The translations under genes were made by a program, and so were the position numbers. Under the pieces are notes generated by a model. It saw nothing but the letters and a program-made list of their open reading frames with translations, did no database searches and was not told the origin of the DNA. Shown here in pieces: positions 3,333 through 18,007 of a stretch of DNA of 38,464 nt (within the stretch, counting starts at the first letter, position 1; each line of letters begins with the position of its first letter). Source of the stretch: Frankiales bacterium. Lineage in GTDB: Bacteria > Actinomycetota > Actinomycetes > Mycobacteriales > SCTD01. The stretch is taken from the NCBI GenBank assembly GCA_025464915.1, contig JAODNF010000311.1, positions 1 to 38,464 of the forward strand, given 5' to 3'.

Positions 3333-4462
3333 CCTCGACCCTCTTCCGAGGCGGCTCGATCACGACCTGGGCCGACGAGCCTGCGACCGCCCTGGTCCTC
3401 GAGGACGGCTTGGTCGTCAGCCATGACGAGCAGCCGTGCGACGAGGTCGTCGAGCTCGACGGCCGGTGCGTGGTCCCGGGGTTCGTGGACAGCCACACGC
3501 ACCTGGTCTTCGGCGGCGACCGGACAGCCGAGTTCGAGTCGCGGATGGCCGGGATCCCCTACGCCGCAGGAGGGATCAGGACGACCGTCGCCGCGACGAG
3601 GGCCGCCTCGACGGAGGAGCTGGCGTCCCGGGCCAGGAGGCTGGCGGACGAGTGCCTGCGGTCCGGCACGACGACGATCGAGGTGAAGTCCGGCTACGGC
3701 CTGACGGTCGAGGACGAGCGGCGGCTGCTCGAGGTGGCGCGTGGCATCACGTCGCACACCACCTTCCTCGGTGCGCACGTCCCTGACGGGGACGGGTACG
3801 TCGACCTGGTCACCGGTCCGATGCTCGACGCCTGCGCTCCGCTCGCGACGGCCGTCGACGCGTTCTGCGAGGAGGGAGCGTTCGACGTCGACCAGTGCCG
3901 TGAGGTGCTGAGCGCCGGCAGGGCGCGCGGTCTCGCCGTGCACCTGCACGCCAACCAGCTGCGGCCCGGCGGCGGTGTGCGGCTCGCCGCCGAGCTCGGC
4001 GCCCTCTCTGCCGACCACTGCACGCACGTCTCCGACGAGGACATCACGGCGATGAGGGACGCACGGGTCGCTGCCGTGCTCGTCCCCGCCGCCGAGTTCA
4101 GCACCCGGTCGCCGTACGCCCCCGCCCGTCGCCTGCTCGACGCGGCCGTCACCGTCGCCCTGGCCACGGACTGCAACCCGGGCACCAGCTTCACGACGTC
4201 GATGCCGTTCGTGATCGCGCTGGCCGTGCGAGAGCTCCGCCTGACACCGCTCGAGGCGCTGCGCGCCGCCACCCTCGGAGGGGCGACGGCGCTGGCGGTC
4301 GATGCCGGTCACCTTCGGGTCGGCGCGCACGCGGACCTCGTGGTGCTGGACGCGCCCTCGCCGGCGCACCTGGCCTACCGGCCGGGCGTGGACCTCGTCG
4401 CGCAGGTCTGGCGCGGCGGGACGCTCGTCAGCGGCCCTGCCGCGCGCAGTCGATGCAGGTGA
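3329..4462 (+). CDS. hutI: Imidazolonepropionase
   Basis: GTG at 3329 overlaps the hutU stop (GTGA). [60 protein letters not shown]. Confidence 0.95.
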
Positions 4463-4760
4463 GGGCGCTCGGACGCGCCTCGAGCCGCTCGGCGCCGATC
4501 TGCCTGCCGCACGCCCGGCAGATCCCGTAGGTCCCGTCCGCGCGGGCGGCGATGGCGGCTTCGGCCGCCGCCACGGACTCGGCCGCCTGGGCGATCAGGG
4601 CCGCGAGCTGCTCGCGCTCGTAGGCGATCGTGGCCCCCTCCGGGTCGTGCTCGTCGTCGGAGTTCGCCCCTTCGGCCGCGGCGACCACCTCGGCTCGGGC
4701 AGCCTGGAGGTCGACGACCCGTCGTCGGGCGTCGTCCAGGGCTTCGGAGAGCGCATCCAT
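4428..4760 (-). CDS. TraR/DksA-type C4 zinc-finger protein
   Basis: 110 aa, N-terminal coiled coil and C-terminal [33 protein letters not shown] (four Cys). Confidence 0.85.
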
Positions 4761-4800
4761 GTGACGTCTCCCACCTCCCCCTCCGTCGCCGGCTCAGCCA

Positions 4801-4818
4801 TGTCATCATATGATGACA
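4801..4818. promoter_or_regulatory. Perfect 18-bp palindrome TGTCATCATATGATGACA, probable operator over divergent -10 elements
   Basis: Exact self-complementarity read from sequence; it contains TATGAT on both strands between TraR/DksA (-) and MFS (+). Confidence 0.75.
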
Positions 4819-4842
4819 TCACGCGCTGACATCGAGGTCCCC

Positions 4843-6270
4843 ATGCGCCACCGGCCCGGCACCCCCCTCGTCCCCGTCCTGGTCTACCTCGCGATGGTCA
4901 CGTCCGTCGTGAGCAGCCTCGGCGCCCCGCTGGTGCCGACGATCGCCCACGACACGCACGTGTCCCTCTCGACGGCGCAGTGGTCGCTGACCATCTCGCT
5001 GCTCATGGGGGCGGTCGCGACCCCCACCCTCGGGCGCCTCGGTGACGGCACCCGGCGCCGGCCCGCCGTCCTGGGTGCGCTGTCCGCCGTGCTGCTCGGC
5101 TGCATCCTCGCGGCGATCCCCGGCCCGTTCTGGCTGCTGCTCCTCGGCCGCGGCCTGATGGGGGTCGGCCTCGGGCTCATCCCGCTGACGATGGCGATCG
5201 CCCGCGACCACCTCGAGGGCGAGCACCGCACCCGCATCGTCGGGCTGCTCTCGATCGCGGCCGTCGCCGGCATCGGGCTCGGGTACCCCCTGACCGGCAT
5301 CATCGCCGAGCAGTGGACCTTCCGCGCCGGCTTCTGGTTCGGTGCGGGCGTCGTCGCCGTCGCCCTCGTGCTTGCCGTGGTCGCCGTGCCCGGCGTCACG
5401 GACCGGCCGGCAGCTCCCCTCGACGCCGTCGGAGCCGTTCTGCTCGCGGCCGGCGTTGCCGGCGTCCTGCTGGCCATCGGGGAGGCAGAGGTCTGGTCCT
5501 CCGCGCTGGTCCTGGCCCTCATCGCCGCCAGTGCCCTGGTGCTCGCCGGCTGGTTCTGGCACGAGCTGCGCACCCCGCACCCGCTGGTGGACCTGCGGTT
5601 GGTGAAGGACCGCACGGTGCTCACCGCTGACCTCACCGGCATCCTTGCCGGCGTCGGGATGTACGCCCTGATGTCGATGATCATCCGCTTCGCGCAGACG
5701 CCGTCGTCCGCGGGCTACGGCTTCGGCTCGAGCATCGTGGTCAGCGGCCTGCTGCTCCTCCCGCTGTCGGTCATGTCGACCGCGTCCAGCCGCATCGCAC
5801 CGCTGCTCGCGCGCCGCTTCGGGCAGCGCGCCGTCCTGCCCATCGGCTGCGGCATCTTCGTGCTGGCCAACCTGCTGTTCGCCCTCGAGCGCGGCAGCTA
5901 CCTGTCCGTCGTCGTCGTGATGGCCCTCGCCGGCCTCGGCGTCGGCTGCACGTTCGCCGCCCTGCCCGGCCTCATCGTCGCGAGCGTCCCGGCTCACGAG
6001 ACGGGCAGTGCGATGAGCTTCAACCAGGTCCTCCGCTACGTCGGCTACTCCACCGGGTCGGCACTGTCCGCGACGGTCCTCGAGGCCCACACCCCCTCGG
6101 GCGAGCTGCTGCCGACCGCGTCCGGCTACACCACCGTGGCCCTGCTCGGCGTCGCGATCCTCGTCGTCACGGGCATCGTGAGCGCGATCGTCCCAGGACG
6201 CGAGTCGGCACCCGGCCTCGAGCTCGCCGAGGAGAGCGTCGTCGACGGCATCCCTGTGTCGGTCGACTGA
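4843..6270 (+). CDS. MFS transporter (EmrB/QacA-like, DHA2 type)
   Basis: Multiple hydrophobic TM segments, TISLLMGAVATPTLGRLGDGTRRRP. ATG 4843 preceded by GAGG; the track start 4810 lies inside the palindrome. Confidence 0.9.
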   Translation: MRHRPGTPLVPVLVYLAMVTSVVSSLGAPLVPTIAHDTHVSLSTAQWSLTISLLMGAVATPTLGRLGDGTRRRPAVLGALSAVLLGCILAAIPGPFWLLLLGRGLMGVGLGLIPLTMAIARDHLEGEHRTRIVGLLSIAAVAGIGLGYPLTGIIAEQWTFRAGFWFGAGVVAVALVLAVVAVPGVTDRPAAPLDAVGAVLLAAGVAGVLLAIGEAEVWSSALVLALIAASALVLAGWFWHELRTPHPLVDLRLVKDRTVLTADLTGILAGVGMYALMSMIIRFAQTPSSAGYGFGSSIVVSGLLLLPLSVMSTASSRIAPLLARRFGQRAVLPIGCGIFVLANLLFALERGSYLSVVVVMALAGLGVGCTFAALPGLIVASVPAHETGSAMSFNQVLRYVGYSTGSALSATVLEAHTPSGELLPTASGYTTVALLGVAILVVTGIVSAIVPGRESAPGLELAEESVVDGIPVSVD

Positions 6271-6791
6271 TGGCCCGCGGGCAGGAGCTGCTCCTGACGG
6301 CGGCCCAGGAGCTGTTCGCCGAGCGCGGTTACGAGCGCGTCACCACCCGCGAGATCGCCGAGCGAGCCGGGGTCGACGCGACCCTCATCGCCCGCTACTT
6401 CGGGAGCAAGGCCGGCCTCTACCTCGCCTCGCTGCGCGCCGAGCTCGGCGACGGGCCGCCCCCGGACCTGCTGCAGCCGAACCGGATGGCGGCGCTGCTC
6501 GGGCGCGTCGACCATCGCGGACCCGGCCCCGTGTTCCAGTCCGCCGTGCACCCTCACGAGGACGAGGACGTGCAGGCGCAGGCCCGCGAGGCCCTGCACG
6601 CGCGACTGGTCACACCGCTGGCCGAGCGCTTCTGGGCCGCAGGTGTCCCCGACGCGCAGACCCGGGCGGAGGTCGTCGCCGCGGCCTTCGCGGGCATCGC
6701 GCTCGGCCGCGCCAGCGGCGCCTTCCCCGCCCTCGAAAAGCTGCCTGCCGACGAGCTGGTCGCGATGGTCCAGGAGCTGCTCACCCCGTGA
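6270..6791 (+). CDS. TetR/AcrR family transcriptional regulator
   Basis: N-terminal HTH: LLTAAQELFAERGYERVTTREIAERAGVDATLIARYFGSKAGLY. TGATG overlap with the MFS stop. Confidence 0.92.
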   Translation: MARGQELLLTAAQELFAERGYERVTTREIAERAGVDATLIARYFGSKAGLYLASLRAELGDGPPPDLLQPNRMAALLGRVDHRGPGPVFQSAVHPHEDEDVQAQAREALHARLVTPLAERFWAAGVPDAQTRAEVVAAAFAGIALGRASGAFPALEKLPADELVAMVQELLTP

Positions 6792-7036
6792 GGTGGTTTC
6801 TCACGGACCGGACGACGGGCCGGTACGTCGTCGCGCAGTGGCCCAACCCGCCGCTCTGGCTGTGGATCGTGCCGACCCTCGCGCACCGCGTGACCGGAGC
6901 TGCCTGGCTCAGCTGGGTCGCCACCGCCGCGCTGGGAGCGTGGGCGCTGCTCGAGCTGGTGCGCGGCCAGAGCCCCTTTCGCCGCCTCCTCGGCGCCGCC
7001 GTCCTGGCGGCGACGGTCCTCGGGCTGCTGGGCTAG
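6788..7036 (+). CDS. Small membrane protein (82 aa), unknown function
   Basis: GTG start overlaps the TetR stop; about two hydrophobic helices. Confidence 0.7.
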   Translation: MRWFLTDRTTGRYVVAQWPNPPLWLWIVPTLAHRVTGAAWLSWVATAALGAWALLELVRGQSPFRRLLGAAVLAATVLGLLG

Positions 7037-9303: not shown

Positions 9304-10005
9304 GTGGTGAATTCAGTGAACGTGGAGGGCCTGACCGTCGTCCGGGGGCGTACCGAGGTGCTGCACGACCTGACGTTCTCCCTGCAGCCGTCGCGCATCA
9401 CCGGCCTGCTCGGCCCCAGCGGCTGCGGCAAGACCACCCTGATGCGCGCGCTCGTCGGCGTGCAGTCCGGCATCACGGGCACCGTCACCGTGCTCGGGCA
9501 GGCGGCGGGCACCAGGGAGCTGCGCAGCAGGGTCGGATACGTCACCCAGGCACCGGCCGTCTACACCGATCTCAGCGTCGGGGAGAACCTCCGCTACTTC
9601 GCCAGCGTCCTCGGCGCCACCGGGGTCGAGCAGGTGCTCGGGCAGGTCGGCCTCGCCGACCGGTCGGACCAGCTGGTCGGCACGCTCTCCGGCGGCCAGC
9701 GCGCTCGCGTCTCGCTCGCCTCCGCTCTCCTCGGCAGTCCTGAGCTGCTCGTCCTCGACGAACCGACGGTCGGGCTCGACCCCGTGCTCCGCCGTGACCT
9801 GTGGGCGCTGTTCCGGTCGCTGGCCGACGACGGCACGACGATCCTGGTCAGCAGCCACGTCATGGACGAGGCCGGCCGCTGCGACCGGCTGCTGCTGATG
9901 CGCGAGGGCCGGCTGGTCGCCGACGACTCCCCCTCGGGGCTGCTGATGGCGACCGGGGCGACAGACGTCGAGGGCGCGTTCCTCTCCCTGGCGCTGGCGT
10001 CGTGA
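9304..10005 (+). CDS. ABC transporter ATP-binding protein (ABC-2 type exporter)
   Basis: Walker A GPSGCGKTT, signature LSGGQRARVSLA, Walker B LLVLDEPTVGLDP. Confidence 0.93.
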   Translation: MVNSVNVEGLTVVRGRTEVLHDLTFSLQPSRITGLLGPSGCGKTTLMRALVGVQSGITGTVTVLGQAAGTRELRSRVGYVTQAPAVYTDLSVGENLRYFASVLGATGVEQVLGQVGLADRSDQLVGTLSGGQRARVSLASALLGSPELLVLDEPTVGLDPVLRRDLWALFRSLADDGTTILVSSHVMDEAGRCDRLLLMREGRLVADDSPSGLLMATGATDVEGAFLSLALAS

Positions 10006-10730
10006 GGACCGTCGCCACGGCCCGGCGGGTCCTCAGCCAGCTGCGCCGCGACCGCCGCACGATGGCGTTGCTGCTCGTCGTACCGCTCGTGCTGCTGACC
10101 CTGCTCCGCTACGTGTACGACGACCAGCCGCGGGTCTTCGACCGCGTCGGCGGCCCGTTGCTCGCACTGTTCCCCTTCATCACGATGTTCCTCGTCACCT
10201 CCGTCGCGATGCTGCGCGAGCGCACGACCGGCACGCTCGAGAGGCTGCTCACGACGCCGATGGCCAAGGGCGACCTGCTCGTCGGCTACGCCCTCGCGTT
10301 CGGGCTCGTGGCAGTCGTCCAGACGTCACTCGCCTCCGCGCTGGCCCTGGGCCCGCTGGGTCTGGACCTCACCGCCGGACCGGTCCTCGTGGTGCTGCTC
10401 GCGGTCCTCGACGCCCTGCTGGGCATGGCCCTCGGCCTGTTCCTGTCGGCCTTCGCGCGGTCGGAGTTCCAGGCCGTCCAGTTCCTGCCGGCGGTCGTCC
10501 TGCCGCAGCTGCTGCTCTGCGGCCTGTTCGCCCCGCGGGCGACGATGGCGGCGCCGTTGCGCTGGCTGTCCGACGTGCTCCCCCTGACCTACGCCGTCGA
10601 CGGGATGCAGGAGCTGGCGCGGACGTCGTCGGTGAGCGGCCGCCTCGCACGTGACCTCGGAGTCGTCGCCGGGGCGTCCGTGCTGGCCCTGGCGCTCGGT
10701 GCCGCGACCCTGCAACGGCGCAGCGCGTGA
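10002..10730 (+). CDS. ABC-2 type transporter permease
   Basis: MRTVATARRVLSQLRRDRRTMALLLVVPLVLLTLLRYV plus further TM helices. GTG 10002 overlaps the ATPase stop; the track start 9801 is too early. Confidence 0.9.
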   Translation: MRTVATARRVLSQLRRDRRTMALLLVVPLVLLTLLRYVYDDQPRVFDRVGGPLLALFPFITMFLVTSVAMLRERTTGTLERLLTTPMAKGDLLVGYALAFGLVAVVQTSLASALALGPLGLDLTAGPVLVVLLAVLDALLGMALGLFLSAFARSEFQAVQFLPAVVLPQLLLCGLFAPRATMAAPLRWLSDVLPLTYAVDGMQELARTSSVSGRLARDLGVVAGASVLALALGAATLQRRSA

Positions 10731-11305
10731 CCGGCCGACGGCCCGGGGACAGCGGCACCCGCGAGGCCATCCTGGCGGCGGCCAAGGAGGGCTTCGGGAC
10801 CCAGGGGTACGCCGCGACGTCACTGCGCTCGGTGGCCCGCGCGGCCGGGGTCGACCCGTCGCTCGTGACGCACTACTTCGGCGGCAAGGACGGGCTGTTC
10901 GAAGCGGCGCTGGAGCTGCCCATGGAGCCGGGTGCGCTCGTGACCGGGCTCCTGCAGGGGGCGGTGGGAACCCTCGGCGAGCGCGTCGTGCGGACCTTCC
11001 TGCTGGTCTGGGACAGCACCCCGGGCCAGGGCCCGATGCTGGCGATGCTGCGCAGCGCGGTGTCCCACGACGACAGCGCCGCGAAGCTGCGCGAGCTGCT
11101 GCTGCGGGTGCTCCTGCGCCCGCTCGCGCTCGGCGCCGGCGGCGACGACCCCGACCGGCGCGCCGCACTGGTGGCCTCGCAGGTGGTCGGCCTCGCCATG
11201 ACCCGGTACGTCCTGAAGCTCGAGCCGATCGCCTCCGCGCACCCCGACCAGCTGGCCCCGGTGATGGGAAAGACGCTCCAGCGCTACCTCACGGGTCCTC
11301 TGTAG
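10727..11305 (+). CDS. TetR/AcrR family transcriptional regulator
   Basis: ILAAAKEGFGTQGYAATSLRSVARAAGVDPSLVTHYFGGKDGLF; GTGA overlap with the permease. Confidence 0.92.
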   Translation: MTGRRPGDSGTREAILAAAKEGFGTQGYAATSLRSVARAAGVDPSLVTHYFGGKDGLFEAALELPMEPGALVTGLLQGAVGTLGERVVRTFLLVWDSTPGQGPMLAMLRSAVSHDDSAAKLRELLLRVLLRPLALGAGGDDPDRRAALVASQVVGLAMTRYVLKLEPIASAHPDQLAPVMGKTLQRYLTGPL

Positions 11306-16604: not shown

Positions 16605-18007
16605 GAGCCGCTGAGGTGGTCGGCGGCGAGCTGCGTGAGGGTGCCCTTGGCGAGCTTGCCGCCGGACGATCGGGGCAGCTCGTCCAGGACGAGCAGGTGC
16701 TCGGGCCAGGACTCCTTGCCGAGGCCGCGCTCCTCCAGGTGCGTCGTGAGCTCCTCGAGAGTCAGGGTCGCCCCCGGAAGAAGTGTGACCACCGCACACA
16801 CCTTCTCGCCGAACACCTCGTCCGGCACCGGCACGATGCCCACTGCGTCGACGGCCGGGTGGCTGTCGACGTGGTTCTCGACGACGACGGCGCTGATGTT
16901 CTTGCCGCCCCGGATGATGATGTCCGAGGTCCGGCCGACGACGGAGACGTAGCCGTCGTCGTCGACCGAGACCAGGTCGCCCATGAGCATGAAGCCGTCA
17001 GGGGCGTAGAGCTGCGCGTTGGCCGCGTCGTCGTCCCAGTAGCCGTTGCACGTCAGCGGACCCAGTCCCCCAGGGATGCCGGTCCCCTCGACCTCCTCGC
17101 CCTCCGGCGAGTAGAGCCGCATCTGCATCGAGGGGACGACCCGGCCTACCGTCGTGAGGCGCTTGTCGCGCGGGTCGTCGTGCCGGGTCGCCGTCAGCGC
17201 GCCGGTCTCGTTCGACCCGAAGAAGCTGAGCACGACCGCACCGGTGCGGTCCTCGAACTCGCGGGCGCGGTCCGGCGGGATCATCTCGCCACCGGTGAAC
17301 ATCACCTTCAGCGACGACAGGTCGTGCTCGCCCGACGCCGGGTGGTTGAGCAGCATCCGGAACTGCGTCGAGACGCACATCAGGACGGTGACCTGCTCCT
17401 GCTCGATGAGCCGCGCCATCGTCGGCACGTCGAACCGAGGGAGCACGACGCACGGACGACCCGAGACGATGGGCGCCACGTGGGCAGTCCAGAGCCCGAA
17501 GCCGAACGGCGCGGGGATGACCGACATGAAGGTCTCGTCCAGGCCGAGGTCACCGAACTCGACCGCGTGCTCGAAGAAGCGCATCCAGCGGGCCTGCGTC
17601 TGGGTGACCACCTTCGGCATGCCGGTCGTGCCGGACGTCGAGTTCAGCAGCCACAGGTCCTCGACCCCGAGGGCCCGAGCGGGGTCCAGCTGACCGGAGC
17701 CCGAGCCGAGGGTCAGCAGCCGGCGCGCCCCCGTCCTCGCGAGCAGGTGGTCCCGCTCGGCGTCCGAGGCACGGGAGCCGATGCCGACCCCGACGACGCC
17801 CGCCCGCTCCGTACCGAGGAAGGCCGCGTGCACCGCCTCGTCGTCCTGGAGCTGGATCCCCACCCGGTCGCCCGGGTCGAGATCCCTGAGCCCCCAGGCG
17901 ATGTCGTCCGCCATCGCCGAGAGGTCGGACCAGGTCGTCCGACCGGACGGAGTGACGTAGGCCGTGCCCGAGTTGCGACGGACCAGGTCAGACAGCGACG
18001 CCGGCAC
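16595..18007 (-). CDS. Class I adenylate-forming enzyme (acyl/aryl-CoA synthetase)
   Basis: LLNSTSGTTGMPKVV, FFGSNETGALTATRHDD, YVSVVGRTSDIIIRGGKNIS, RSSGGKLAKGTL. Confidence 0.93.
   Translation of the reverse strand: MPASLSDLVRRNSGTAYVTPSGRTTWSDLSAMADDIAWGLRDLDPGDRVGIQLQDDEAVHAAFLGTERAGVVGVGIGSRASDAERDHLLARTGARRLLTLGSGSGQLDPARALGVEDLWLLNSTSGTTGMPKVVTQTQARWMRFFEHAVEFGDLGLDETFMSVIPAPFGFGLWTAHVAPIVSGRPCVVLPRFDVPTMARLIEQEQVTVLMCVSTQFRMLLNHPASGEHDLSSLKVMFTGGEMIPPDRAREFEDRTGAVVLSFFGSNETGALTATRHDDPRDKRLTTVGRVVPSMQMRLYSPEGEEVEGTGIPGGLGPLTCNGYWDDDAANAQLYAPDGFMLMGDLVSVDDDGYVSVVGRTSDIIIRGGKNISAVVVENHVDSHPAVDAVGIVPVPDEVFGEKVCAVVTLLPGATLTLEELTTHLEERGLGKESWPEHLLVLDELPRSSGGKLAKGTLTQLAADHLSGSHT

Follow-up and report, generated by a model that had tools for sequence, protein, structure and literature searches.

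QacR, a TetR regulator of the MFS pump gene qacA in Staphylococcus aureus, belongs together with CgmR, Ms6564, and CprB to the TetR regulators that occupy long operators as two dimers. The operators of QacR, Ms6564, and CgmR span 28, 31, and 32 bp, respectively, within a range of 22 to 32 bp for two-dimer TetR regulators, and the half-site centers of QacR are 37 Å apart (PMC4150764). Where palindromes overlap, base pairs are shared by the proximal subunits (PMC6018408), and DarR of Mycobacterium and Rhodococcus binds overlapping palindromes as a dimer of dimers, the second palindrome being imperfect with one weak half-site (PMC10636190). In the TetR/tetA, Streptomyces ActR, and SCO3367 pairs, the repressor lies beside an exporter and the operator near both promoters (PMC3511530), with the repressor gene divergent from its target.

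The locus described here was found in a 38,464-nucleotide contig of a Frankiales bacterium (JAODNF010000311.1; the window), and close relatives of the locus are Frankiales MAGs. As with QacR and qacA, a TetR regulator is predicted to control an MFS pump from a long operator, and as with the tetA and ActR types, the repressor gene lies beside that of the exporter with the operator near the promoters; but the TetR gene is located downstream of the pump gene in the same operon, co-transcribed behind its target rather than divergent from it. Moreover, in contrast to the QacR group, the half-sites form a run at a fixed 13-bp pitch that is three to six units long in relatives. Overlapping palindromes with an imperfect second one, on which two dimers are predicted to sit, are present here as for DarR, which differs in its motif (ATACT-N4-AGTAT), targets, and effector. 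The features of the locus are as follows.

4428-4760, minus strand: DksA-like C4 zinc-finger protein (PF01258, 41.5 bits), the divergent neighbor.
4801-4818, strand not applicable: palindrome 1, TGTCATC-ATAT-GATGACA, center 4809.5, proposed to hold the first TetR dimer and conserved ahead of the MFS gene in relatives.
4801-4831, strand not applicable: whole predicted operator, a run of three half-sites spaced 13 bp apart (units 4799-4807, 4812-4820, and 4825-4833; 33-bp matrix over 39 loci).
4805-4832, minus strand: promoter-like sequence facing the DksA-like gene, made up of ATGTCA (4832-4827), 16-nt spacer, and TATGAT (4810-4805), covered by the operator.
4809-4814, plus strand: TATGAT, a possible MFS -10 box with no recognizable -35 box, unreported by the promoter scan.
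4814-4831, strand not applicable: palindrome 2, TGACATCACGCGCTGACA, imperfect (6 of 9 pairs) and overlapping palindrome 1, center 4822.5, 13 bp from that of palindrome 1, the predicted second dimer site.
4843-6270, plus strand: MFS efflux transporter (PF07690, 138 bits).
6270-6791, plus strand: TetR-family repressor (PF00440, 61.7 bits; cutoff, 24), the predicted operator ligand.
6788-7036, plus strand: 82-amino-acid protein, overlapping the TetR gene by GTGA.

A hut cluster on the plus strand (HutH and an imidazolonepropionase-like amidohydrolase) precedes the DksA-like gene, which diverges from the MFS gene across an 82-bp gap. The MFS start at 4843, with GAGG upstream, was preferred to an in-frame ATG at 4810 that falls within the palindrome. 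The pump resembles EmrB/DHA2 transporters in being an MFS_1 (PF07690) protein with TIGR00711 as its best NCBIfam match, but at 119 bits it lies below the curated cutoff of 230 for that subfamily. The first base of the TetR gene is also the final base of the MFS stop codon, and the gene for the 82-amino-acid protein, to which Pfam and NCBIfam profiles assigned no family and which has a homologue at the same place in a second genome (G005), is a probable third member of what is a compact operon. The TetR protein has an N-terminal TetR_N helix-turn-helix formed by helices 26-33 and 38-44 in an AlphaFold model (pLDDT 90), residues 38-44 being the recognition helix α3, and a fold search with this model gave moderate matches (TM about 0.4 to 0.67), the Ms6564-DNA complex among them. 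The sequence-only reading had called the divergent neighbor TraR/DksA-like, and the TraR label was lost at 29.9 bits against a cutoff of 59.7 (TIGR02419); the DksA cutoffs likewise lie well above the scores of this gene (46.8 versus 105 bits for NF033459 and 43.7 versus 115.5 for TIGR02420). A second TetR gene, of the TetR_C_16 type (10727-11305), closes an ABC transporter unit (9304-10730), and no copy of the 4801-4818 site was found near it at up to 3 mismatches.

The palindrome TGTCATCATATGATGACA was located at 4801-4818 of the window exactly as the sequence-only reading had reported it, perfect and indeed self-complementary over 20 bp (4800-4819), and it is single, with no other copy at ≤3 mismatches in the 38-kb window or in the 3.80-Mb, 501-contig assembly. 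A wider regulon was rejected on the same result, there being no second site within 3 mismatches in its own genome. Perfection alone is no evidence of function, because, at a base composition of 71% GC, a 38-kb window should contain ∼0.66 perfect 18-bp palindromes by chance, and a second, GC-rich one exists at 17234-17251. That expectation speaks for a palindrome arisen by chance; however, one this AT-rich is expected only ∼0.0003 times per window and ∼6e-7 times within the 82-bp intergenic gap, and the site is conserved across families, so that a chance origin was rejected on composition and conservation in relatives, and its probability is practically negligible.

The palindrome makes up the left side of an array of 31 bp at 4801-4831 (TGTCATCATATGATGACATCACGCGCTGACA), the third half-site of which (4825-4831) had been missed by the earlier reading. 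The half-sites of the window, TGTCATC, GATGACATC, and GCTGACA, form two overlapping palindromes, the arrangement of QacR-like two-dimer operators, with the second one imperfect in the window, and an inverted repeat of 16 nt around 4816 emerged independently. In relatives, the conserved block is likewise 31 bp long and has three half-sites, 13 bp apart, that form two overlapping palindromes (TGTCATCAT-NN-GATGACATC-NNN-TGATGACA). When distances from 9 to 19 bp were scanned, the next half-site was 13 bp away in 44 of 50 loci, while any other distance occurred in at most one locus. Counted by a 5-of-6 arm match, which misses GTAGAC-type arms, the arrays mostly comprise three half-sites, with four in nine loci (L049, L050, L067, L111, L112, L114, and L117 among them) and six in one. 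In the latter, L051 of Streptomyces sp. SID10853, the six half-sites follow one another at exactly 13 bp, and the array lies ∼168 bp ahead of the inferred start of the MFS gene. This fixed-pitch array of three to six half-sites is the sole unusual-looking feature of an otherwise mostly ordinary predicted TetR operator.

The sequence-only reading had named conservation upstream of MFS-TetR pairs as a check on its proposal, and such conservation was found. Among MFS relatives gathered by protein, the array was present upstream of 36 of the 37 with a co-oriented downstream TetR gene and of 1 of the 20 without (Fisher p = 6e-13, uncorrected for the relatedness of the loci and thus a mere guide, since these are related by descent; the TetR-less loci are largely from one family and therefore non-independent). 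Matrix scores were 30 to 59 at 36 of the 37 TetR-bearing loci and ≤ -12 at 19 of the 20 TetR-less ones. The exception in the former set, L045, retains the first palindrome alone, and that in the latter, L048 (Streptomyces sp. Act143), has a degenerate array, in which three direct 13-bp repeats (TGACATCGCACGG) lie 68 bp ahead of where the MFS gene is inferred to start; no TetR gene was found near L048, the repressor of which may have been lost or moved.

In addition, a motif-first scan independent of protein covered 395 genomes of the class and matched 12 (reversed control pattern, 0 matches), in all 12 cases immediately upstream of an MFS homologue. Once extended, the 11 loci besides the window carried a co-oriented TetR gene downstream of the MFS gene, as does the window itself. 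A strict 20-bp pattern matched only the window in a 397-genome sample of the phylum, and a pattern with TGATGACA as third half-site had no match in the family, because the third half-site of the window is GCTGACA. Moreover, one genome of another genus (G019) encodes a TetR orthologue (53%) with no MFS gene in front, and ∼210 bp upstream of it the site survives as two clear half-sites with the 13-bp spacing; this orphan locus corresponds to L095 1-900 (G019:C277), on a contig that begins just upstream. Among the results listed by literature searches for the motif letters there was no TetR operator of this sequence, an absence that is no proof because the results were partly swamped by unrelated papers.

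The palindrome is thus borne out as a predicted operator, on its conservation upstream of MFS genes and its co-occurrence with the pair across families, and the TetR encoded at 6270-6791 is very likely the protein that would bind 4801-4831, because the array tracks MFS-TetR pairs and an orphan TetR keeps a recognizable site. Several families share the use of palindromic operators, and the L048 array has no adjacent TetR gene, both of which would fit a different regulator as ligand, such as the TetR at 10727-11305 or a MarR or GntR protein; however, the array accompanies the downstream TetR gene in different families, the orphan TetR locus included, and no second site was found within 3 mismatches in window or assembly, which makes this very improbable.

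We therefore consider it highly probable, from comparative sequence evidence, that the 6270-6791 TetR has 4801-4831 as its dedicated operator, which serves autoregulated, inducible efflux by the MFS-TetR-82-amino-acid operon. TetR dimers would occupy both overlapping palindromes, 4801-4818 and 4814-4831, thereby masking the operon's promoter region and keeping transcription off; a pump substrate would bind TetR, release the repressor, and turn the operon on. The operator ends 11 bp before the MFS ATG, and because of this position a bound repressor would block the MFS transcript too. We infer two cooperating dimers on overlapping palindromes by analogy with QacR, CgmR, and DarR. Half-site centers within a dimer are 11 bp (∼37 Å) apart, matching QacR, and the length of the site lies inside the 22- to 32-bp range of two-dimer TetR operators. 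A 13-bp step would turn adjacent dimers by ∼86° and bring the centers of their inner recognition helices to within ∼2 bp of each other in a single groove. With sites and helices spaced so closely, it is uncertain whether both dimers could bind at once, and the strict 13-bp array is a clean test case for DNA sharing by TetR dimers. A more speculative proposal, which we regard as unlikely, is that these actinobacterial MFS operons define a TetR subfamily with a periodic operator of exact 13-bp pitch (3, 4, or 6 units), in which successive dimers share half-sites and array length, rather than a single two-dimer site, tunes the strength of repression. The analysis assigns a predicted repressor and operator to an uncharacterized efflux operon of Frankiales, Streptomyces, and other actinobacteria, and the 31-bp motif is specific enough for genome-wide detection of such operons.

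The hexamer TATGAT can be read at 4809-4814 (plus strand) and 4805-4810 (minus strand), as the sequence-only reading had noted, because the center of the palindrome is self-complementary. Its interpretation as overlapping divergent -10 boxes is weak: the promoter scan of 4420-5100 reported one sigma70-like site, on the minus strand with a fair -35 box and inside the operator, which gives the minus-strand hexamer a sigma70-type pair, whereas the plus-strand hexamer is without a -35 box. A TATGAT center occurs in 3 of the 39 operators of relatives and is thus not what selection keeps; as a conserved feature it was rejected. Genus relatives have TCTGAT, TGTGAT, or AGTGAT instead. At one relative, L042, the operator contains the sole plausible in-frame start of the MFS gene, a GTG; by eye, TAGAGT was seen six bases upstream of it, and the MFS transcript looks leaderless.

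The earlier reading had further proposed that one TetR occludes both TATGAT promoters in a designed switch co-regulating the DksA-like gene and the pump. The divergent order of the two genes is kept in the four genomes in which the DksA-like gene adjoins the operator, all of the window's genus, and the sole sigma70-like site from the scan, which faces the DksA-like gene, lies inside the operator, so that a bound repressor would block the best candidate for its promoter. Divergent TetR targets <200 bp apart are, moreover, usually repressed in Streptomyces, although in those cases one of the two divergent genes encodes the TetR (PMC3511530). However, the TATGAT center is lost in genus relatives, the plus-strand promoter lacks a -35 box, the operator has no DksA neighbor outside the genus, and no operator was found within the fetched flanks of the 13 DksA relatives of the family located elsewhere (0/13), by which the operator as a property of the DksA-like gene was rejected; we consider the full switch rather doubtful. 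We lean slightly towards an operator that serves MFS-TetR only, with the DksA-like gene an unregulated bystander using another promoter, since the operator follows TetR and MFS rather than DksA. Against this stands the distance of only 40 bp between the operator end and the DksA-like ATG, a gap so short that the promoter of the DksA-like gene probably lies partly within the operator or directly beside it, and bound TetR may reduce transcription of that gene. Under an operator dedicated to MFS-TetR, the DksA-like gene may still be co-repressed in this genus as a secondary effect, a local by-product given the restriction of the adjacency to the genus and the operator-free relatives elsewhere.

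Almost all TetR relatives carry Leu at residue 39, within helix α3, and seven carry Met; GTAGAC half-sites, the alternative to GATGAC, accompany six of these seven (L018, L020, L021, L022, L047, and L058). The TetR tree indicated three independent changes at residue 39; in two or three of these the half-site changed in step, and in none in the opposite direction, a covariation that is not significant (p = 0.25 to 0.5) because there are only three changes. The Leu/Met change beside the GATGAC/GTAGAC change counts in favor of this TetR as the ligand and suggests a specificity rule. One locus inside the Met-39/GTAGAC clade, L024, has Leu at residue 39 and mixed half-sites.
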